From: a virus
DNA: 58,811 bases
IMG/VR virus record: IMGVR_UViG_3300030328_004676
Coordinates: 1 to 58,811 of that record
Reading direction: 5' to 3' (one strand)
Both the position numbers and the translations under genes were made by a program. Below the pieces are notes generated by a model. It saw only the letters and a list, made by a program, of their open reading frames with translations. It was not told the origin of the DNA and made no database searches. Positions 13,135-51,420 of this stretch are shown piece by piece (within the stretch, counting starts at the first letter, position 1; each line of letters starts with the position of its first letter).

Positions 13135-14255
13135 TGTTTGAGAATGTTCTCTTTTACAAAATCGACTAATAGTGAGGTAATTTTTTCATCCGACTCTAGA
13201 AACTCATAAACTGATTTAATCCCTTGATAAGAATCTTTCGTTTCAATCTTGTTTTCGGTTAGATAACTTTTTACCTTATCATCAAGTTTAATCCAAGCTC
13301 CTGATTTCTCTAAATAACCCCACATCAAAAGCATGTCAACAACTTCCCTCTCAAGCCAAATGGATTTACCGTTGCTCCGACCATGCTTGATTGGATAAGC
13401 TACAATTTGCCCTGTTGCTTCGTTTGTTGATTTTAGAATTAAAACCTTGGCGTTGTGACCATAGATTTTATTATCAGGAGTAATTTGTTCTGTTGGTTTT
13501 TCTAGAATTTTATCACTCTTATTTTGTTTTTTGAATTCTAGAATCCAATCTGGGTAGTGTAAAATAGCGTTTCCTCCACTGCTGTTTGTCTGGTTGTTTG
13601 GGTCTTGCTTGGCATACATGCTTGTAGAGATAGTCGATCTCACCTGAGAGATCATAATACACATATGTCCGAACTTGCTCATTCCCAAGCTGACTCTTTT
13701 TAAGAAGTCAGAAGTCATTAAGGCTCCTCCCGCTACTTTTCTAGCATCAGAAGAGCCTTTTTCTAAGTCTTCTTTTGTAATTAAACCGTCCATACTGTCG
13801 ATTACAATACAGAATTTTTCTTTGTCTGGGTTATTTTTAAGTAAGCCTCTCAAAAAATCAATCATGGTGTCCATAATGTGGCACTCAAGAACAAGGCATG
13901 TCCCCACATCCCAATCTTCTGCCGAATGAACAAACTTAATCCCCGCTCTATCTTTAATATCTTGGCTTAATCTACCTTCAGCCATCACAAAAAGACCCTT
14001 AGAGTTTTCTACCGTCTTGAGCATGTTGTGCATCACATGCAGAGCTTCATTTGTTTTACCCCCTTCATTTGCTCCAATAAATCTATGTAGACCCGATCCA
14101 AATCCTCCGCTCAAAACGTGATCAAGAATCATAGACCCACTGGACACTAGATATGGTTCTGCTCCTTCCTCTAAGTTGTAGTGGTAGTCTTTGTTTGATT
14201 TGAGGAATGCCTCTGTATAATCCTTCGATCCGCTTTTCTTCTTCATTTTAGTCAT
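13131..14255 (-). CDS. RecA/UvsX-like recombinase
   Basis: A 374-residue recombinase with Walker A GANEGGKT (61-68), Walker B FCIVIDSMDG (148-157) and the RecA-like loop 1 region KVAGGALMTSDFLKRV. It ends with an extended C-terminal region as in phage UvsX. GSGLHRFIG before the P-loop also matches RecA. It should form filaments on single-stranded DNA and catalyse strand exchange for repair or recombination-dependent replication. The start overlaps the zinc-ribbon gene by eight bases. Confidence 0.88.
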   Translation of the reverse strand: MTKMKKKSGSKDYTEAFLKSNKDYHYNLEEGAEPYLVSSGSMILDHVLSGGFGSGLHRFIGANEGGKTNEALHVMHNMLKTVENSKGLFVMAEGRLSQDIKDRAGIKFVHSAEDWDVGTCLVLECHIMDTMIDFLRGLLKNNPDKEKFCIVIDSMDGLITKEDLEKGSSDARKVAGGALMTSDFLKRVSLGMSKFGHMCIMISQVRSTISTSMYAKQDPNNQTNSSGGNAILHYPDWILEFKKQNKSDKILEKPTEQITPDNKIYGHNAKVLILKSTNEATGQIVAYPIKHGRSNGKSIWLEREVVDMLLMWGYLEKSGAWIKLDDKVKSYLTENKIETKDSYQGIKSVYEFLESDEKITSLLVDFVKENILKQ

Positions 14256-14691
14256 TTAAAAAATCTCTTAGTGTTCTAGTCTTTTTCTTTACAGTATCTT
14301 CTCCAACTTTTACGCCCGTGTCAACAAATTTATCCTTCTCTGGGAGCTTGTAGTTAAATTCCTTATATTTTTTGCTTAAATATTCTCTTCCATCTTTTGT
14401 TAAAAAATATTTAATACTGCCTTTTAATTCAAAAGGCGGTTTAACCTTGGATAGAAAGTCGAGATCGTTTTCAAACTGTGAAAAAATCTTTGTCACAGTA
14501 GACATTTCAAAAACGTAATTTATTGGCTTTGAGCCGCCAAGCATACGCTTTAAGAATTCTTTTCTTTCTTTAAAGAAGGGCTTTGCTTGTTTTTTAGCTT
14601 TTGGCAAAAATTCATGACCGCAACCGCAAACCTTAATCCGTGCTCCGAGTAGGGCATTGCAGGATGGACATGACTTTTTACCTCTTGGCAT
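14248..14691 (-). CDS. Zinc-ribbon protein, first gene of the replication operon
   Basis: A 147-residue basic protein. The N-terminus holds a probable zinc ribbon, with Cys pairs in CPSCN and CGCGHEF. The rest is rich in Lys and contains helices with FKERKEFLKRML. It could bind DNA or recruit RNA polymerase, but no specific function is recognised. It is the first gene after the promoter at 14,698-14,725, with only six bases between -10 box and ATG, and its end overlaps recA. Confidence 0.65.
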   Translation of the reverse strand: MPRGKKSCPSCNALLGARIKVCGCGHEFLPKAKKQAKPFFKERKEFLKRMLGGSKPINYVFEMSTVTKIFSQFENDLDFLSKVKPPFELKGSIKYFLTKDGREYLSKKYKEFNYKLPEKDKFVDTGVKVGEDTVKKKTRTLRDFLND

Positions 14692-26741: not shown

Positions 26742-27475
26742 CCTATTGTTTTTGAATATACCTTGTTAGTGTTAAAAAATGAAAATGGTGTTTTAGAATT
26801 TGTTCTTTTTTTCAAAAGACCTCCTGATACAATTTCACAGTGATAAGTGTCAAGATCTTCTAAATACATCTGGGCCTCTTCCCAAGTATCAAGGACTATT
26901 TCTGTCACGTTTATGTTCGGCTGAAAAGTGAACGTAGGTCCGTTTTCAGTAGAGATAATAGACTGTGTAAATATATCATCATCTTCTATTAAAAAGTCTG
27001 AGTCGGGTTCACCAAAGTCTTTTGCCCTATTGAATCTGACGCATATTGTATCTGGGTTTTTTTCTAAAAAATCAATAGACTTTTTTATAGCGTCTGCTAA
27101 TTCAATCCCCGAAGTTTGTAGTAACTCATCATCTTCTACCCAAAAAGAATATTTTTCTTTTTTAATTTTGGGGTCTGAATATGACTTATAAATATCTTTG
27201 AAGTATCCAGCAGAATGAGTTAGGTGATTTTCTGAGTGGTGAACAATATTTTCTATTGTTTCTAAAACTCTGATGTCTCGATCTTCACAAAAGGTTTTAA
27301 TTTCTTCTGCTATTTTTTCTTCTCCCTCTCTTGTTTTTAAGTGCAGGAGTCTATTTTTAAATATATTTTTATCAACCTTGTCATAAAGATTGTTTATGCA
27401 GTCTTTATAGGTGTGCCTTCCAGCGTGACCCATAGTCGTGCAAAAAATTATTAAGTTAAGAGAAAGTGGATTCAT
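26738..27475 (-). CDS. Glycosyltransferase-like protein (245 aa)
   Basis: A 245-residue protein. LNLIIFCTTMGHAGRHTYKD is the N-terminal strand, HLTHSAGYFKDIYKSY leads to YSFWVEDDELL, which has the position and look of a GT-A DxD motif, and ICVRFNRAKDFGEPDSDF follows. It overlaps the nucleotidyltransferase start by 20 bases. The function is inferred from its neighbours; substrate unknown. Confidence 0.5.
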   Translation of the reverse strand: MNPLSLNLIIFCTTMGHAGRHTYKDCINNLYDKVDKNIFKNRLLHLKTREGEEKIAEEIKTFCEDRDIRVLETIENIVHHSENHLTHSAGYFKDIYKSYSDPKIKKEKYSFWVEDDELLQTSGIELADAIKKSIDFLEKNPDTICVRFNRAKDFGEPDSDFLIEDDDIFTQSIISTENGPTFTFQPNINVTEIVLDTWEEAQMYLEDLDTYHCEIVSGGLLKKRTNSKTPFSFFNTNKVYSKTIG

Positions 27476-27875
27476 GAATTTTTTTTCTCAAATTTGATGA
27501 TGAAAAACAATGATCTCTAGTATTATAGATTATCTTATGTCTTTTTCCATCTAATTCATAACCAGTAAAATCTTTACCCTTCCAGTCTGAACCAATAAAT
27601 CTAACATCTATATCAATAGATGTTAGTATTTCTAATAAATCATTTTCTGTTTCATACGGAAGAATCTCATTTACAAATTTTGTCGCTTTTAATTGTATAT
27701 ATCTCTCTACCAAAGACTGCACTGGACTATTTTTAAGGCACCTTTCTTTGCTGGGATCTACATGCAGTCCAGCTATTAAAAAATCACACTTAGAAGCACA
27801 TTCCTCAAGCATGAGGATGTGACCAGCATGTAGCAAATCAAATGCGCCACAAGTAAACCCTATTTTTTTAGACAT
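27456..27875 (-). CDS. TagD/HldE-like nucleotidyltransferase (cytidylyltransferase-like)
   Basis: A 139-residue protein of the class I nucleotidyltransferase fold. FTCGAFDLLHAGHILML contains the HxGH motif (HAGH), DPSKERCLKNSPVQSLVERY gives the next conserved region, FIGSDWKGKDF the middle motif, and CFSSSNLRKKI the C-terminal xSSTxLR-like motif. Relatives are glycerol-3-phosphate cytidylyltransferase and the nucleotidyltransferase domain of HldE. With HldD- and GmhA-like proteins in the window, a heptose adenylyltransferase role is possible. It is the first gene after the leader at 27,876-27,943. Confidence 0.78.
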   Translation of the reverse strand: MSKKIGFTCGAFDLLHAGHILMLEECASKCDFLIAGLHVDPSKERCLKNSPVQSLVERYIQLKATKFVNEILPYETENDLLEILTSIDIDVRFIGSDWKGKDFTGYELDGKRHKIIYNTRDHCFSSSNLRKKIHESTFS

Positions 27876-27943
27876 AAAAACCTCTGGGCCTAGTATCAGA
27901 CCCAGAGGTCTACTATGACCTCAAGGAAATAAATCCTCGACCT
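27876..27943 (-). promoter_or_regulatory. Structured 5' leader of the sugar operon, candidate attenuator or small RNA
   Basis: Read on the minus strand, the 68 bases from the expected transcription start to the ATG form three hairpins. H1 pairs 27,934-27,939 with 27,922-27,927. H2 pairs GAGGTC (27,917-27,922) with GACCTC (27,905-27,910). H3 pairs ACCTCTGGG (27,901-27,909) with CCCAGAGGT (27,880-27,888) and is followed by a short U run ending at the start codon. H2 and H3 share bases 27,905-27,909, so they cannot form together, the hallmark of attenuators. The pairings are seen in the sequence; regulation is inferred. It could also be a short RNA with its own terminator. Confidence 0.5.
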
Positions 27944-27948
27944 GTCCT

Positions 27949-27977
27949 ATTGTAGAATCAGTTGTCGGGTTTGTCAA
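27949..27977 (-). promoter_or_regulatory. Near-consensus sigma70 promoter for the sugar operon
   Basis: On the minus strand a perfect TTGACA (27,972-27,977), a 17-base spacer and TACAAT (27,949-27,954). The -35 box begins directly after the stop of the 39-aa ORF. Transcription would start near 27,942, giving a leader of about 68 bases, unlike the leaderless arrangement elsewhere in the window. Confidence 0.7.
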
Positions 27978-28097
27978 CTAATCCTCAATAATCTCTTCAC
28001 TGATGCGCCCAAGTATATAGGCGAGTGTTTCATCAGTTTCGAAATCGTTGGGAGGTTTCTCAATTTCCTCATCAGTTATTTTGCTTAGGTCAGTCAT
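27978..28097 (-). CDS. Small acidic ORF (39 aa) after nrdA
   Basis: The minus strand from 28,097 reads MTDLSKITDEEIEKPPNDFE and ends in RISEEIIED, then TAG. It is acidic and probably helical at its end. It lies 37 bases after the nrdA stop and ends immediately before the -35 box of the next promoter. No Shine-Dalgarno sequence is visible, and the ATG lies within a perfect palindrome. Codon pattern looks normal, but at this length it could be chance. Confidence 0.4.
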   Translation of the reverse strand: MTDLSKITDEEIEKPPNDFETDETLAYILGRISEEIIED

Positions 28098-28107
28098 AGT
28101 ATGACTG
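28091..28107. repeat. Perfect 17-bp palindrome around a start codon
   Basis: CAGTCATA-G-TATGACTG is an exact inverted repeat of 8+1+8 bases. It covers the ATG of the 39-aa ORF and could be a protein-binding operator or an RNA hairpin that masks the start codon. Confidence 0.4.
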
Positions 28108-28134: not shown

Positions 28135-29781
28135 TTAACCCTCGCAAGACGAACAATTTAAAATTGATCTAGCTAATTCTTGACTAGGATTAGCACTTCT
28201 TTGATAATAAAAGCTCTTAACTCCCTGCTCCCAACCAAAAATTAAAAGTTCGCTAACTTGCTTTGGGGGACACTTGGGAGAAATCATTACATTGAGACTT
28301 TGTCCTTGATCAATATATTTTTGTCTTTGGGCGGCTTGTATTACAATCTCCTTTTGGGAAATCTCCCCGAAAGTTTTAAATACATCTTTCTCATGCTCCG
28401 ATAAGAAATCTAAATGCTGAACCGAACCTCCTTTTACTAAAATAGATTTCCAAGTGGTCGTATTGTTTTTACCCTTCTCTTCAAGAAGTTGTTCTAAATG
28501 TGGATTTTTATATGTAAATTTACCTTTAGCTAAATCTTTAGTAAAATAATTACTATTTAATGGCTCAATAGATGGAGAAACTTGACCAAGAATAAATGAA
28601 CTAGATGTAGTGGGGGCAATAGCCATAGTGGTCATATTGCGTTTTCCGTAGCCGCGAAGATGTTCTGGCTCCCCAAATTCTTCTGCTAATTTGGATGTAG
28701 CTCTATCGCATCTTTCTCTAATTATATTATGTATCTCCGCATTTAAAAACTGAGCCTCTAATCCTTCGAAAGCAATATTCTTGGATTGTAGGAGAGAGTG
28801 CCAGCCGAGAACACCAAGACCTAAAGCTCTTTGTCTTTTAGCGAAGTTGTGACAAGACTTCATAAAGGGAATATTTTCTGTTTTGTAGATATATTCCTCC
28901 ATAACTGCATCAAGAAACTGAACAAGAGTTTCAACCGCATCGGTTTCTTTTATTTCGTCCCACCTGAGAAGGTTTAAAGAAGATAAACAACAGACAAAAG
29001 ACTCGTCCTCTGACGAATGCAAAGCTATCTCACTGCAAAGATTAGAAGCATGTATCTTAAGTTTCTTATCCTTGTATGCTTGTGGAGCGTTGTTGTTGGC
29101 ATTGTCTGTAAAAAATATGTATGGATATCCCGTTTCAAATCTTTTCTTTATTACATTCGCCCAAACTTTTCTTTTATCCTTATCTCCGTCTACCATTGAC
29201 CGCATCCACTTATCATCAATGCAGACAGCAAACGACATTTCTTGGATAGGATTGCCTTCGCTTCTAATCCTTAAAAATTCCTCAATATCAGGGTGATCTA
29301 TAGGAAGATATGCTGCGAAAGATCCTCTTCTTACATGTCCTTGGGAAACAATAGACGCAACTTTATCAAATAGCTCCATGAAATAAACTGCGCCAGCAGA
29401 AACTCCTCCCACGCTAATTGGAATCCCTCTTGCTCTTAAATCACCAAAATAGCCCGATGTCCCAGAGCCATGTTTTGTTTGCATTCCAACTTCCGCTTGT
29501 TTGCGGAGAATAGAATCCATTTTATCGTCAACATAAACGCCATTACAGGAAATAGGTAACCCTCTGTCTCTACCAAAGTTAGACCAAACAGGACTAGAGA
29601 GAGAATAAAACCCCCTCTTCATATAATGTTCAAACTTATCCGCAAACCCGCTCTGCCTTAAATATTTTTCAGCAGCCTCTGCGATAGCCCTTATTCTTTT
29701 TTTAGGACTCTCCCCTTTTTGTAAGTAACCTCTTTCAAGGAATTGTTTGGATTCTTCGTTTAACCAATAGTAATCTTTCAT
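28135..29781 (-). CDS. nrdA: Ribonucleoside-diphosphate reductase, alpha subunit (class I)
   Basis: A 548-residue large subunit, short because the N-terminal ATP-cone regulatory domain is missing. The redox and radical residues are visible: Cys79 in SCNGVYVDD, Asn247, Cys249 and Glu251 in NLCSEI, and the partner Cys264/265 in FVCCLSSLNL. The C-terminus ends in NCSSCEG with the Cys pair that is re-reduced by thioredoxin or glutaredoxin. The enzyme makes deoxynucleoside diphosphates for phage DNA. Its ATG overlaps the nrdB stop (TAATG). Lack of the cone suggests relaxed dATP inhibition, as in many phages. Confidence 0.95.
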   Translation of the reverse strand: MKDYYWLNEESKQFLERGYLQKGESPKKRIRAIAEAAEKYLRQSGFADKFEHYMKRGFYSLSSPVWSNFGRDRGLPISCNGVYVDDKMDSILRKQAEVGMQTKHGSGTSGYFGDLRARGIPISVGGVSAGAVYFMELFDKVASIVSQGHVRRGSFAAYLPIDHPDIEEFLRIRSEGNPIQEMSFAVCIDDKWMRSMVDGDKDKRKVWANVIKKRFETGYPYIFFTDNANNNAPQAYKDKKLKIHASNLCSEIALHSSEDESFVCCLSSLNLLRWDEIKETDAVETLVQFLDAVMEEYIYKTENIPFMKSCHNFAKRQRALGLGVLGWHSLLQSKNIAFEGLEAQFLNAEIHNIIRERCDRATSKLAEEFGEPEHLRGYGKRNMTTMAIAPTTSSSFILGQVSPSIEPLNSNYFTKDLAKGKFTYKNPHLEQLLEEKGKNNTTTWKSILVKGGSVQHLDFLSEHEKDVFKTFGEISQKEIVIQAAQRQKYIDQGQSLNVMISPKCPPKQVSELLIFGWEQGVKSFYYQRSANPSQELARSILNCSSCEG

Positions 29782-30752
29782 TAAAATAAATCTTCAGCGT
29801 CAAATGTTTGAGAGTTTTTTGCGTATTCTACAGGTCGCGTATGAAAAAAATCAGTAGCATTATTCCCGAGTAACTCTTCTTCAAACCAAATTGTATTCAC
29901 TAATAGATCCTTGTCAACATCAAATGCCTTCTTAAAGCCAATTTGCTCTAATGATTCGTTAATTCTATTCTTAATAAATTCTTTTAAAATCGGTGCGCTT
30001 ATACCTTTCTCGCTGTAGCCGTTGATCATCCAGTCTACAATTTGAGATTCTGCCTTAAAAGCGGCTTGTGACTCCTCTAAAATTTTCTCTTCAAGACTAT
30101 CGTCAAAAAGCTCTGGGTGCTCTTCTCTAATTGTGTTAATTATCTTAATTCCAGCTAAAGCATGAATATTTTCTTCGTTTCTTGTATACTTTACCTGTTG
30201 TCCAGTGTCTTTTAGGACATTCTTGTAACGATTAAACCAATTGATTATGTAAAACTGACTAAACAGAGAAACATTCTCTACAAAGAGTGTGAACAAAATA
30301 AGAGCATATACATATTGTTTCTTGGAGTCTTTGTAAAACCTGTGGGTATATTTTCTCAGATAATTCACTCTACCCTCAATAAAGTCCAGCTTAAGGTTCT
30401 GCTCAAAAATATCCTCTAATCCCAACACCTTTAGTAATCTCTCATAAGCATTATTGTGAATAACCTCCACATTAGCCATGACATATCCTAAATCAGTTAA
30501 GCTGGGGTGAGGTAAATTGTCTCCCAGTTTGCTCCAAAATTTCTTTACCGCTACTTCAATTTGACCAATAGCAGAGAGAGTTCTGATAATCATTTCTCTT
30601 TCTGTATCGTTTAAATTTACACTGAAGTCTTGCACATCACTGGTAAAACTAAACTCTTTATCTGTCCAAAACCCATTATGCATAGCCTCAATAAATTCTT
30701 CTGCCCAAGGATAATGGTCTGGTTTTCTGGATATCTGTTCTTCAAAAATCAT
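29781..30752 (-). CDS. nrdB: Ribonucleoside-diphosphate reductase, beta subunit (class I)
   Basis: A 323-residue radical-generating subunit. The metal site is visible as Glu66 in QIEVAVKKFW, Glu96 and His99, with the radical Tyr103 in the pattern VEVIHNNAYERLL, and the second pair in ENVSLFSQF and NEENIHALAG. The C-terminal DAEDLF is the tail that docks to NrdA. The first ligand is Glu rather than Asp, as in many phage enzymes. nrdB comes before nrdA, the reverse of the E. coli order, and has a promoter at 30,768-30,796. Confidence 0.95.
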   Translation of the reverse strand: MIFEEQISRKPDHYPWAEEFIEAMHNGFWTDKEFSFTSDVQDFSVNLNDTEREMIIRTLSAIGQIEVAVKKFWSKLGDNLPHPSLTDLGYVMANVEVIHNNAYERLLKVLGLEDIFEQNLKLDFIEGRVNYLRKYTHRFYKDSKKQYVYALILFTLFVENVSLFSQFYIINWFNRYKNVLKDTGQQVKYTRNEENIHALAGIKIINTIREEHPELFDDSLEEKILEESQAAFKAESQIVDWMINGYSEKGISAPILKEFIKNRINESLEQIGFKKAFDVDKDLLVNTIWFEEELLGNNATDFFHTRPVEYAKNSQTFDAEDLF

Positions 30753-46341: not shown

Positions 46342-49300
46342 TTATAAATTCTTTTTCATTTGGCCAAGCTGTGATTCAACATCAGCCAGTCTCTTATTTA
46401 GATTTTCTTGTATTTTTGTCGCACTTTTAACAATTTCATTATTGTTCTCTACGACTTTGGTAACCTCTTTTGCGGCATCTACCTGAGCATCAATATAATT
46501 TGTTACCCCATCAAAACTTCCTGCTGCTGCTTCCATTGCAGCTTTTAAATCTTTCATTTCTTTTGCGACTGATGCTGTGTCAGTATTATTCTCTAGTTCT
46601 CCAAATGCTTTTTCAGCCCCCTTAATTCTAACCCTTACCGCTTCCAATTCTGCATCAACATCCTGTAGGTCTTTGGTTTTTAGAACGCCAGTTTCCTCTT
46701 GAAGATTCTTTATTTGATCGTCAGAGAAACCAGCATCTTTCATCTTGTTTGCCCCCGCTAACTTAAAACTGTTTATAGCTTCGACAAGCTCAGGACTACC
46801 TAAACCTTTAATAACCTGAGTTACTGAGCCTAAGTCTTGAGGATTGAAATTTTCTAATAACCTTGCCTTATCTGTTTCTGTTGCTTTTGGATCTAAGAAA
46901 GTTTTCTGCAACTCATCCATTTGAGCTTTTAAGAAAGTAGGATCAACTTTGTTGAATCCAGTTCCTTGGAACTTTCCTCCAAAGTCTATTTTATTTTGAT
47001 CCTCTTCGGCTTTTATATCTTTCCTTTTCTTTATTATTCCTTCTTCTTGTTTTTTGAGACTGCTAATTAAGTTTTGAAGTCTTGCAGCAGACTCTCCGAC
47101 TTTAGCTTTGAAATCAATACCAGCCTTTTCAACTGCCGCTTGAAATGGAGCCAACCTTGCTTGGAAGTTTGGGTCACTCTCTTTACCTTGGTTCGCTCTT
47201 AAGAATGCATCTAGTTTGTTCTGCGCGTCATTTCTCACATTCCTAGCATCATTGATGCCCGACATATCTGAGCCAAACTGATTTGCGTCTTGAACAGCCT
47301 CTCCAAATCGACCTTGCAGACTACCTCCCATAGCGAGCCTTGCCGCCATGTTATTCCTGTGCTCCGCTAGAGCTACTTCTGTTTCTAATAAAGCTTTATT
47401 TAATTTTTCCTGATTTGCATTTGATTGCTTAACTAAAGAGTTTCTTTTTGAGGTTAATTCATCATATAGGGCATCGTTTGCGTCTCTGTCTGCTTGGTTA
47501 TCATGAGTGGACTGAGTTAGCTTCATTGACGCTTTTGTCAAATCAGCCCTCGCCTTGACCAGCTTGGCATGTGCAGCATCAGATTCTTCTTCGTTGGTTC
47601 CGTCAGCATCCAAGTGTCCTTGAATAGCGTCCGCATAAGCTTGTCTTGCTTTAGTATAGTCTTCTACAGCCGCCATTGCCGCTTTCTCTCCCGCTTCTCC
47701 TCCACCTGCTTGGTCGGAAATTAGTTGAGCACCAGCTTGAACTTTTGCTCCAAAAGTCTCTTGATCAAACCCTATTGTTCCTGTGGTATTGACATCTTTC
47801 TCAATCAACCTCAACAGATTCTGTTGTCGTCGATCTTCAGGGGATATTCCTTTGTCCTCATCTGGCCCCAAAGCTGCTTCAGTTGCTTTTTCTCCTAACA
47901 TACCGCCAATAAGTGCTCCCGCCGTCCCCGCCAAAAGACCGACAACCGCACCAGCTATTGTCCCAGCCACAGGGACAACGCTACCTATAGCAGCACCAGC
48001 AGCCATACCTCCACCTATTGCCCCCAGCGTTTTACCTGTCGCTACCTTTTTTTCGTGTTTTGTTAATTCGTCTCCAAATAATTTAGGCAAAAGTTCTATA
48101 GCTCCAATAGCAACACCAATTGTTCCTGCACCCCTAACAGCAGACGAAGCCCCTTTACCCAGTCTTTGGGATTGTGCAAAATTTCTAGTCGGGGCGTTTC
48201 GCGCTACAAATCCTCCTATTCCTTTCTTTGAGCTTCCTCCAAAAAAGCCTCCGACACCTTGGCCTACTTTACTGCCACCAATCCCCTTCATTAACTTTCC
48301 TCCACCAACCTTTTTCAAAAGAGGAGCAGCTATACTTCCTATCATCAATCCAGTTAAAGCATTATCAAATGTTAACATGCTTCCCAATCCCCCACCACCA
48401 CCTGAGTCTCTCCTCTTCCTCGCAGAAATATCTGCTTCTATTTCAGCAATAAGCTCCATCCTTGCTCCAATTTCCTCCTTGGCTGCATGGGCATTTGCAA
48501 TTCTTTCCTCCCTTTCTACGTCAAGAGAATTAGTGTTTTGTTCTACCGCAGCACTACCTGTCCCCAAAACGCTAGACAATAAAAACAAATTAGTTACAAG
48601 ACCACCCATCCCGCTTTCCGCTTTTTGGACATCTCCTCCACCGCTAGAAGATTTTTTCTTTTTTCCTTTCCCTAAACCTCCGAAAATTTTCCTGATACCA
48701 CCAAATCTATAGTTGGGAACAAATCCTCCTGCACCCATTGGTATACCTGCTCTTTCTCTATCTACTGCATCTCTAAGTCCCCTTGGCTCATCTTCTAAAT
48801 TTGTTACAGCTAATGGCTCTCCAGTCATCGTGTCTCTGTGAACACGAATCTTTGAGTCAGGCATTCTGCTGCCCATAGCATAGTTAGGAATAATACCTCC
48901 TTTAGCCTTTTTAATTCCTTTAAATGCTAATTCTTTTTTAGGTATGCTCCGCATAACCTGTTCTGAGAACCTGCTCTTACCAGCAGCACTGTTTTTGAAA
49001 TCACCCCAAGAAAAACCTCTTCCAGTTAAACCAAATATTTTTTCAATAACTTGATTACCTGCGATTTTAACATCTAAAGTGTTGTTACCCGTTCCAGCTT
49101 TAACCCCGCCTTGAACAGCATTAACAATAGCCTCAAAAACCGCTCCCCTAAGAGCGCCAAATGCCCCTGCTCCACCTTCAGCCAAAACCCTTTTCTTGAT
49201 ATCTTGGACACCATAACGCTTAGGCTTCATTTTTAATTTACCACCCATTTTCTTAGTGGTAATATCCATTGCGTTGTTGACACCTCTAGCCATAGAAGCA

Positions 49301-51420
49301 TCTAAGATTTTATCCATTCTAAGCATTCTAGCAAAACTAGGATCATCTCTTTTCATGTTGGGATTAATCCCTGCTATACCGCCTATAAAGCCTTTAAATC
49401 CAGTTTGCTTACGTCTAGCTTCCTGAAATGGATTAACGCTAGCAGATGTTGGGTCAAACTGCCTTACTTGAGGAATAAGCATGACAGATTTGGTCCCTTG
49501 GTTTGCATTATATACATTGAAACCAGAACCATAAGCTCTCTTCTTTGCTCCCTTTTTATATCCCGCAGCAGCGGCTTGCTCTTTTGTTATTTTCCCATCC
49601 TTAAGGCCACGGGCAACTTTTGCCCCACTTAATGATCTGCCCCCTATCATGAATGATGCATAATTAGGAACAAATCCACCTTTATTAAAACCAAGCCTAC
49701 CCTGATTTACATCTTCCATGAAAGGCTGGCCAAATTTATTAACCGCACTTTTCTGCATGACAAACTCACCAGAGGTAAGCATCGCAGGAACATCATCTTT
49801 TGTCCCTGACCCTCCAGTAACCTTACCACCAACAGCAAAAGGTTTACCTTTTTTACCGCCAAACAACCCAGTGCCAGCACTAAAACTCCCTACACCTCTA
49901 GCGGCAGCAGAAGTCGCTATCTGTCTCATAAGAGCAGCCTGAGTTGTTAATAATTGGTTCTCTCTTTGTATGGCAGCTAATACTGCTTGCTCTTTTTGAG
50001 CCTGAGTAGCAGTAGAACTCAAAATCATATTGCGAAGACTTTGATCTTTTTGCAAAAGACCAACAAGACCTGCCTCAATGTTTTTTATCTTTTCTGCCTG
50101 AGTCCCCATCGCAAAAAGGGATCTCAAACCCTCAACAGCGAACTTAGCAACCAACTTTGCTATTTTTGCAAACGCAGCAGTAACTAAAACAACAGCAGGA
50201 CCGCCCATGAAGGCACCTATTGCCTTAAAGATACCTTTTATAAAAATATTTCCTTTTTCTGGATCTAAGGCTTTATCTAAAAATTCTGTAAACTTTGTAG
50301 CTATGCCTACTAGGTTTTCTAAAAGAGGCCCGAATGTTAACTTGCCTATCTTTTCAGCTAGACTAGTAACACCCTGTATTAAAGCGTTAATTTGTGCAGC
50401 CAAACTTTTATTTAAAGCCTCATTTTTTTCGAAAGCCTCATTAGTAGCTTTAGAAGCAGTGGTAGCAGCTTTTTGAAATATAGAAGTTTCAGAACCTAAG
50501 TCTTTTAACGCCGCACTAACCACGTTTATCTGGAAAACTCCACCAGCTAATTCTTTTATCTTAGAAACAACCGTAGGGTCTCCTATATTTTCTATAGCCT
50601 TAGAAAGAGCATTCAACTTCTGAACTCCACTCATTGATGCATCAATCTGAACCCCCAATTCTTTAAGTTCCTCAATGGTTGTTCCTCTTTGGAGTCTTGT
50701 AAAAATTGATTTAAATGCGTTACCAATAACAGCGCCCCCTCTAGCTGTCTTTTGCTCTACAGCCGTCACAAGACCAAGTAATTGATCAAAACTAACGCCC
50801 GCATCTTCCGCTGTAGAACCCGCTCGACTAAAAGCCTCTGCCAAGTCTTGAGCAGAAACGGCAAAAGCCGTATCGACAGCAACCATTTTATTAACTATCT
50901 GATTGGCGTTTAGTCCAGCCGATGCAAATCCATTAATTGCTGCCGTAAGAGCTTTAACCGACTTTTCTGCGTCCAAACCCGATATCCTAGTTAAAACTAG
51001 AGAAGCTTTGAGCCTCTTCGCGGTTTCTTCTGCACTTAAACCTTGTCGAGCTAACTCAGCAGCGCCTTCTGCCACAGTATTAAAAGCTTGCCCCGTTTCT
51101 TTGGCTACCTGAAATATTGAGTTTCTAAATTTGTTAAACTGAACATCAGTGGCTTGAAAAATAGAGTTAATCTCTATCAATCTTTTTTCCACCTCAATTG
51201 TTGTTGAAACTAACTTTTTAAATGATTGTGTCACTCCGTTCAAAACGGCAGTAGTGGCTCCAAAGGCAAAGACACGGGCAGTCGAAGCATCCAGAGATTT
51301 CTGGAATTCAGAAGCTTGACCTGTAATCCTACCTAAAGCTTGTGATATCTGCTTCGTAGAAGCATTCAAGCTTTGCGGATTAAGGCTTACATTTAGGGAT
51401 GCATTTAGACTTGTAGCCAT
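46342..51420 (-). CDS. Tape-measure protein, TP901 type
   Basis: A 1,692-residue protein, by far the longest in the window, following two tail-chaperone-like genes. The N-terminal third is helical and matches the TP901 core (RVFAFGATTAVLNGVTQSFK, AAELARQGLSAEETAKR, AGSTAEDAGVSFDQLLGLV). The middle contains DDVPAMLTSGEFVMQKSA, a tape-measure signature, and three copies of a GG[FI][VI]PNY motif. A strongly apolar, glycine-rich region (GAIGGGMAAGAAIGSVVPVA, then GTIAGAVVGLLAGTAGAL) could insert in the membrane. A length of about 1,700 residues predicts a tail near 250 nm at 0.15 nm per residue. Confidence 0.92.
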   Translation of the reverse strand: MATSLNASLNVSLNPQSLNASTKQISQALGRITGQASEFQKSLDASTARVFAFGATTAVLNGVTQSFKKLVSTTIEVEKRLIEINSIFQATDVQFNKFRNSIFQVAKETGQAFNTVAEGAAELARQGLSAEETAKRLKASLVLTRISGLDAEKSVKALTAAINGFASAGLNANQIVNKMVAVDTAFAVSAQDLAEAFSRAGSTAEDAGVSFDQLLGLVTAVEQKTARGGAVIGNAFKSIFTRLQRGTTIEELKELGVQIDASMSGVQKLNALSKAIENIGDPTVVSKIKELAGGVFQINVVSAALKDLGSETSIFQKAATTASKATNEAFEKNEALNKSLAAQINALIQGVTSLAEKIGKLTFGPLLENLVGIATKFTEFLDKALDPEKGNIFIKGIFKAIGAFMGGPAVVLVTAAFAKIAKLVAKFAVEGLRSLFAMGTQAEKIKNIEAGLVGLLQKDQSLRNMILSSTATQAQKEQAVLAAIQRENQLLTTQAALMRQIATSAAARGVGSFSAGTGLFGGKKGKPFAVGGKVTGGSGTKDDVPAMLTSGEFVMQKSAVNKFGQPFMEDVNQGRLGFNKGGFVPNYASFMIGGRSLSGAKVARGLKDGKITKEQAAAAGYKKGAKKRAYGSGFNVYNANQGTKSVMLIPQVRQFDPTSASVNPFQEARRKQTGFKGFIGGIAGINPNMKRDDPSFARMLRMDKILDASMARGVNNAMDITTKKMGGKLKMKPKRYGVQDIKKRVLAEGGAGAFGALRGAVFEAIVNAVQGGVKAGTGNNTLDVKIAGNQVIEKIFGLTGRGFSWGDFKNSAAGKSRFSEQVMRSIPKKELAFKGIKKAKGGIIPNYAMGSRMPDSKIRVHRDTMTGEPLAVTNLEDEPRGLRDAVDRERAGIPMGAGGFVPNYRFGGIRKIFGGLGKGKKKKSSSGGGDVQKAESGMGGLVTNLFLLSSVLGTGSAAVEQNTNSLDVEREERIANAHAAKEEIGARMELIAEIEADISARKRRDSGGGGGLGSMLTFDNALTGLMIGSIAAPLLKKVGGGKLMKGIGGSKVGQGVGGFFGGSSKKGIGGFVARNAPTRNFAQSQRLGKGASSAVRGAGTIGVAIGAIELLPKLFGDELTKHEKKVATGKTLGAIGGGMAAGAAIGSVVPVAGTIAGAVVGLLAGTAGALIGGMLGEKATEAALGPDEDKGISPEDRRQQNLLRLIEKDVNTTGTIGFDQETFGAKVQAGAQLISDQAGGGEAGEKAAMAAVEDYTKARQAYADAIQGHLDADGTNEEESDAAHAKLVKARADLTKASMKLTQSTHDNQADRDANDALYDELTSKRNSLVKQSNANQEKLNKALLETEVALAEHRNNMAARLAMGGSLQGRFGEAVQDANQFGSDMSGINDARNVRNDAQNKLDAFLRANQGKESDPNFQARLAPFQAAVEKAGIDFKAKVGESAARLQNLISSLKKQEEGIIKKRKDIKAEEDQNKIDFGGKFQGTGFNKVDPTFLKAQMDELQKTFLDPKATETDKARLLENFNPQDLGSVTQVIKGLGSPELVEAINSFKLAGANKMKDAGFSDDQIKNLQEETGVLKTKDLQDVDAELEAVRVRIKGAEKAFGELENNTDTASVAKEMKDLKAAMEAAAGSFDGVTNYIDAQVDAAKEVTKVVENNNEIVKSATKIQENLNKRLADVESQLGQMKKNL

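Follow-up and report, generated by a model that had tools for sequence, protein, structure and literature searches.

Conserved leaders at the entrance of long, variable sugar operons are known from the JUMPstart/ops (RfaH) and NusG-paralog systems such as LoaP, none of which, to our knowledge, works mainly by hiding a start codon. In phage T4, genes e, soc, 49 and I-TevI, as well as mobE of phage Aeh1, carry hairpins that sequester the ribosome-binding site (RBS), and T4 has an escape route in late promoters located next to the RBS, whose transcripts drop the 5' arm of the hairpin (PMC3014915, PMC2988022). Another short leader element, putL of phage HK022, is about 70 nt long, consists of two stem-loops situated just downstream of its promoter, and acts over at least 10 kb (PMC9378689). 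Phage sugar islands, with their glycosyltransferases and nucleotidyltransferases, differ even among closely related phages, and a role in altering the host surface or the phage DNA is assumed for them, as discussed for pelagimyophages (PMC7029224).

The window, i.e., the whole stretch of DNA analyzed here (58,811 nt), is the IMG/VR virus record IMGVR_UViG_3300030328_004676 itself. On its minus strand, a leader of about 68 nt with three hairpins (H1, H2, and H3) extends up to an ATG at 27875-27873, and the sugar block behind it comprises about 17 genes in a 13-kb operon. The features of the locus are as follows.

28135..30752, minus strand: nrdA and nrdB, the upstream part of the locus that stays constant, in the same order in relatives
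27978..28097, minus strand: conserved acidic small ORF of 39 aa upstream of the leader, its TAG adjoining TTGACA
27972..27977, minus strand: -35 hexamer TTGACA, directly 3' of the small-ORF TAG; TTGA is present in all relatives
27949..27954, minus strand: -10 hexamer TACAAT, read from the sequence; the predicted transcription start is at about 27942-27943
27921..27940, minus strand: H1, UCGAGGA-UUUAUU-UCCUUGA, 7 pairs (27940-27934 with 27927-27921) at the 5' end of the leader, seen in the minimum-energy fold, pairs conserved
27905..27922, minus strand: H2, GAGGUC-AUAGUA-GACCUC (27922-27917 with 27910-27905), the alternative to H3, seen in the length sweep, pairing kept
27913..27917, minus strand: CAUAG, whose pairing with UUAUG (27877-27873) below H3 in the fold hides the start codon
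27878..27911, minus strand: H3, AGACCUCUGGGUCUG-AUAC-UAGGCCCAGAGGUUU, up to 15 pairs (27911-27897 with 27892-27878), seen in the minimum-energy fold, with double-sided changes
27881..27885, minus strand: AGAGG, Shine-Dalgarno-like, within the H3 3' arm (sequence and fold)
27876..27880, minus strand: run of five T up to the ATG, a weak terminator tail (sequence)
27456..27875, minus strand: cytidylyltransferase-like gene (PF01467) that opens the sugar block; in relatives, other sugar genes occupy this position

A near-consensus promoter ahead of the leader had been proposed in an earlier, sequence-only reading, and TTGACA-17-TACAAT indeed has 11 of 12 consensus matches (sigma70-type) and is the joint best promoter in the 20-36 kb stretch. 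The same reading considered the leader unusually long for this phage, and in fact the distance to the start codon is 6-9 nt or close to zero at several other promoter-like sites, promoter calls and leader lengths being results of consensus matching, not mapped transcript starts. Among relatives, the -35 hexamer occurs as TTGACA, TTGATT, or TTGAAA, with TTGA and the -10 hexamer kept and the spacer freely variable; the distance from the -10 hexamer to H1 is 8 nt in the window and in its diverged homolog L182 alike.

Related contigs, all of them metagenomic records and many of them fragments, were gathered by nrdA-based, motif-based, and sugar-gene searches, and gene order was read where visible. 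The leader was found in 22 further IMG/VR contigs (lineage 1, L182 counted) at the same position in the locus, nrdB-nrdA-small ORF-leader. In L015, L016, and L105 nrdA is followed by an inserted additional gene (MNILQIGC...), and no small ORF was seen at the locus of L182, whose leader was recognized as a diverged homolog with 30 bits (E = 3.9e-6). Contigs scanned whole have one leader element per phage, and in these scans it was found nowhere but at the cassette boundary. The leader is absent from phages with 79-82% nrdA identity (L017, L019-L023, L026-L028, and L061), which, where this part could be seen, have other genes after nrdA. Our impression is that these uncultured phages are probably marine; an 801-base query gave no matches among 50,697 phage records at the DNA level, and thus no cultured phage with the leader. 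A motif match in the bacterial contig L170 was rejected, as it lies inside unrelated sequence without the hairpin, and L093, L108, L109, and the extra hits of one motif search were dismissed as chance matches.

The genes at the leader ATG vary among the relatives and include cytidylyltransferase (PF01467), carbamoyltransferase (PF02543/PF16861), GT2-like, GT1-like, and methyltransferase genes, a family without Pfam match, and others. Identity of the leader to that of the window is 84-99% in near relatives, against 63-88% for the small ORF, and 74-77% against 54-59% in far relatives; the first 57 bases of the downstream gene have 42-52% identity where the gene differs and 84% in L101, which has the same gene. 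The block UCCUUGAGGUCAUAGU is invariant in lineage 1, being more constant than pairing requires. In L087 (L087:1357-1404) a 15-codon ORF begins at the leader ATG and overlaps the true start of the sugar gene, located 7 nt further on, so a sugar gene does not begin at the leader ATG in every case; an apparent recombination junction lies exactly at the leader end in this contig.

The leader (81 nt folded) has a computed energy of -39.5 kcal/mol, compared to -18.8 +/- 3.3 kcal/mol for dinucleotide shuffles (z = -6.2; 0/200 shuffles as good). Its minimum-energy fold consists of H1 and the extended H3, with both the AGAGG Shine-Dalgarno sequence and the AUG paired. H2 and the nine-pair core of H3 (27909-27901 with 27888-27880) lie where the sequence-only reading had put them, 27905-27909 being common to both, and the T-run at 27880-27876 adjoins the ATG as it had said; H1, the downward extension of H3 that pairs the AUG, and the AGAGG in the H3 3' arm are new. 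The CAUAG/UUAUG helix shows a change from G.U to G-C in L097 and L103 (UUUCUAUG), and in the alternative (H2) state CAUAG lies mostly within the H2 loop. The cost of opening the RBS, calculated for positions -15 to +3 around the start, is 21.4 kcal/mol at the leader start, the highest of 62 window starts (mean 5.4, sd 3.5; second highest 12.9 kcal/mol). The unpaired probability of the Shine-Dalgarno sequence is 0.00 in all 15 distinct lineage-1 leaders; the hairpin of L182 is weak (opening 2.7 kcal/mol).

When the leader was folded at increasing length, H1 was present by 20-24 nt, H1 together with H2 was the best fold at about 38-62 nt, with brief exceptions at 48-52 and 56 nt, and H3 won from 64 nt. 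H2 and H3 are mutually exclusive in all 28 distinct hand-aligned leaders, as H2 uses the CCUC that H3 needs. In the complete leader the H3 state is favored over any RBS-free fold by 11-19 kcal/mol (15 distinct lineage-1 leaders); H2 is therefore a kinetic or assisted state and not an equilibrium rival of H3.

A second lineage, found through the sugar-gene search, has hsp20 (PF00011) between nrdA and the sugar genes, in the place of the small ORF. Its leader, TTGARGTGAYTTRTATYG-CTCCTTCTAGGY..RCCTAGAAGGAG-T6-8-ATG, occurs in about 20 contigs before different sugar-related genes. The lineage-1 covariance model, run with filters off, gave its best match at exactly the leader spot in L219 (E 5e-4), L230 (0.015), and L195 (0.067). 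Given the same locus, the same architecture, and this weak but correctly placed sequence match, a common origin of the two leaders is likely. The AUG of the lineage-2 leaders often remains unpaired, and their U6-U8 tail resembles an ordinary hsp20 terminator. Cultured phages yielded a trivial 25-nt match alone for the lineage-2 leader. A TATAAT in the hsp20 end was rejected as the leader promoter, as it precedes H1 by only 2 nt and shows the variation of coding sequence. The contig IMGVR_UViG_3300028197_001695 carries two copies of the hsp20 end and leader (L205 and L234), located before different sugar-related genes, which suggests cassette duplication or tandem insertion.

Two contigs of another lineage (L184:3560-3650 and L190:3560-3650) show a third arrangement behind nrdA. 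Here a near-perfect hairpin, whose loop contains TATAAT and which no U-run follows, has the first start codon in its 3' arm; in L190 it comprises 9 perfect pairs. Owing to the position of the promoter, TTGGAA-17-TATAAT, the 5' arm of the hairpin would be missing from a leaderless transcript. By analogy with T4 gene e, this arrangement does look like a system in which transcripts from upstream would be closed and those starting at the AUG would be open.

In lineage 1 alone, all pairs are kept except the loop-closing pair of H3 (H1 retains 7/7 pairs in the 15 distinct leaders), changes are almost all one-sided, and covariation is hardly above the shuffled control. Comparison was extended to 28 distinct leaders, comprising both lineages and L182, by hand segmentation anchored on structure; the alignment between lineages is thus an interpretation, and MAFFT applied to both lineages together did not recover it. 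Four of the nine H3 core pairs show double-sided changes in this set, namely pairs 1 (C-G/U-A), 2 (C-G/U-A), 6 (G-C/A-U), and 9 (C-G among U-A/U-G), as does pair 5 of H1 (G-C/A-U), the one certain pair of that hairpin, the independent events behind these counts being few. The loop-closing pair 7 of H1 is A-U in one lineage and U-A in the other, which depends on the hand alignment. Compensatory changes in homologous leaders, on which the sequence-only reading had made its proposal hinge, are thus present in H3, as well as in H1; for H2 they amount to a single double-sided change, at pair 3 (G-C/A-U), with four core pairs kept in 28/28 leaders. Broken cells number 3 in H1, 0 in H2, and 2 in H3. 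Part of the sequences was found with patterns fixing UUGARG, those not so found being L007-L016, L024, L182, and L193-L195.

The interpretation we favor, with about even confidence in it, is that this conserved cis-acting leader closes the first gene of an exchangeable sugar cassette by default, mainly at translation. The conserved sigma70-type promoter would give rise to the leader of about 68 nt, for which the stable fold of H1 and extended H3 is computed, and H3 would pair the Shine-Dalgarno sequence and, via CAUAG, the AUG of whichever gene comes behind. As long as the RNA is shorter than about 64 nt, H1 with H2 is predicted as the best fold at most lengths, and H2 would keep the start open until displaced by H3, so that its effect would be confined to a transient phase or depend on a helper. 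Expression of the cassette would then require that a bound protein, pausing or coupled RNA polymerase and ribosome, or some other ligand holds H2 or melts H3; we infer that such an opening signal exists. Where the U-run is long (lineage 2, U6-U8), the same hairpin probably also terminates transcription. Against a default-off gate speaks the closed state itself, so stable that no opening route is obvious and that the cassette would be almost silent without a helper. Besides, most genes of the window phage have no Shine-Dalgarno sequence, so burying it may matter less than usual. Further points against it are the weak hairpin of L182, the frequently unpaired AUG and terminator-like tail of lineage 2, the near absence of covariation above the control within lineage 1, the hand-made alignment between lineages, and the position of the leader ATG in L087.

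Occlusion of the RBS and AUG fits the data better than a terminator or a short-RNA gene. The sequence-only reading had considered an attenuator or riboregulator, and a regulatory leader before the sugar genes is well supported by synteny, conservation, covariation, and the single element found per phage in almost all of the contigs examined; H2, however, is 11-19 kcal/mol short of the H3 state once the leader is complete. Transcription attenuation, with H3 as an intrinsic terminator, H2 as an antiterminator, and regulated read-through into the long operon, is possible but on the whole doubtful. The 15-pair GC-rich stem of H3 followed by U5 is the strongest terminator-like site of the scan in 20-36 kb, the run reaches U6-U8 in lineage 2, and exclusion of H2 by H3 holds in both lineages. 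However, the U-run in lineage 1 is U5, U4, U3, or UUUCU, with only U3 before the AUG in five of the 15 distinct leaders, and it is missing in L182 (UUCC), the hairpin being kept regardless, whereas clear terminators elsewhere in the window phage have T6-T7. As the U-run ranges from none to U8 across the family, termination is probably not the shared function; the hairpin against the start codon is. The other option of the sequence-only reading, a short RNA with its own terminator, is hence unlikely as a shared feature. That such an RNA, ending at H3, acts separately in trans is very unlikely: the promoter, the length of about 68 nt, and the terminator-like end would suit it, but not the U3 and UUCC tails of relatives, nor the constant position of the element next to the start codon at the cassette boundary. 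It is improbable, too, that H3 is a plain insulator, which only ends or silences transcripts entering from nrdA, the overlap with H2 being incidental and no switch being regulated. In each of the three arrangements (lineage 1, lineage 2, and L184/L190) the hairpins do lie directly against the gene that opens the cassette, and the lineage-2 stems end in U6-U8; yet the conserved promoter of lineage 1 and L182 precedes H3, so that its own transcript carries H3, and H1 and the linker are conserved beyond the needs of a terminator.

Two further readings concern the 5' half of the leader. By analogy with put of HK022, H1 and H2 might bind the transcribing polymerase and render it terminator-resistant, so that it would pass H3 and read the 13-kb operon. 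Both elements have about 70 nt, two stem-loops right after an early promoter, and a long operon behind; the hairpins here have 6-nt loops and begin 2-3 nt from the predicted start, and the constancy of UCCUUGAGGUCAUAGU exceeds what pairing needs. We nevertheless regard this as quite improbable, since the stems of 6-7 pairs are much shorter than those of put, a third hairpin follows whose formation destroys the second, and the operon has 10 terminator-like sites vs 7.0 expected, which is no excess needing antitermination. Least probable of all is a mini-ORF, UUG AGG UCA UAG, whose translation would place a ribosome over the 5' arm of H3, as in translation attenuation of the erm/cat kind. It is invariant in lineage 1, reads UUG-AGG-CGA-CAG-UAA in L182 and UUG-AAG-UGA or UUG-AGG-UGA in lineage 2, and has a purine-rich stretch upstream, but there is no synonymous-only pattern, the UUG is within the H1 stem, and the patterns used for finding homologs fixed part of this block. 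The H2 dyad (GAGGTC-N6-GACCTC) was also considered as a DNA operator and rejected, as its right half and spacing vary.

Among the described systems, the RBS-hiding hairpins of T4 e, soc, and I-TevI are the closest kind, and we classify the leader as a variant of leader regulation by RBS-occluding hairpins. Common to both is a Shine-Dalgarno sequence and/or AUG buried in a stable leader helix of a phage gene. In contrast to the T4 type, the whole fold here lies downstream of the conserved promoter, H3 is accompanied by two further hairpins, and different downstream genes have the leader in common; no sigma70-like -10 hexamer, which would correspond to the T4 promoter within or beside the RBS helix, was found just before the window ATG, where a late promoter of a phage-specific sequence may yet lie. 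With JUMPstart/ops the locus shares a conserved leader at the entrance of variable sugar genes; phage-encoded NusG paralogs (PF02357) and CsrA (PF02599) were absent from all 10 phage records searched, though the host may supply such a factor. Attenuators and translational riboswitches, too, have hairpins that exclude each other, with the RBS beside the last of them; unlike those, the leader has no aptamer-like domain, and its alternative fold is too weak to win alone. Rfam covariance models gave no match in the window at the gathering score.

A constant leader ending at the start codon of a variable gene would amount to a rule, by which any cassette joined there comes under the same gate, and bears on how a phage controls a newly acquired cassette. 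It could serve as a sequence marker of the cassette boundary, and as an RNA switch it is testable with simple reporter fusions. We suggest only tentatively that such leaders form a family of phage RNA switches of their own, a portable module of three hairpins, fixed at one genome position behind nrdA in two or more phage lineages, which would gate any recombined sugar cassette via a phage or host signal acting on the choice between H2 and H3 (or on the polymerase, as put does).

Several minor observations were made in the window. About 4-5 of 63 starts have a Shine-Dalgarno sequence in a simple scan. At several starts only 6-9 nt separate the end of a promoter-like site from the start codon, as in leaderless mRNAs (e.g., TTGACT-16-TATACT, which immediately precedes the ATG at 14691). 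GTGTA is found repeatedly at a distance of about 10-17 nt from starts, on their upstream side, and may be a phage promoter motif. The starts concerned by these remarks are 14248-14691, 32694, 52287, 27978, 46342, 53510, and that of nrdB at 30752. An 11-pair AT-rich inverted repeat lies within the first sugar gene (27601-27626), with no clear T-run on the minus strand. Finally, a perfect dyad, AGTCATA-C-TATGACT (28089-28104), surrounds the start codon of the 39-aa ORF, and GTGTAA-T-TTACAC is found just before the tail gene at 46342-51420; each of them could be an operator or a start-occluding hairpin.
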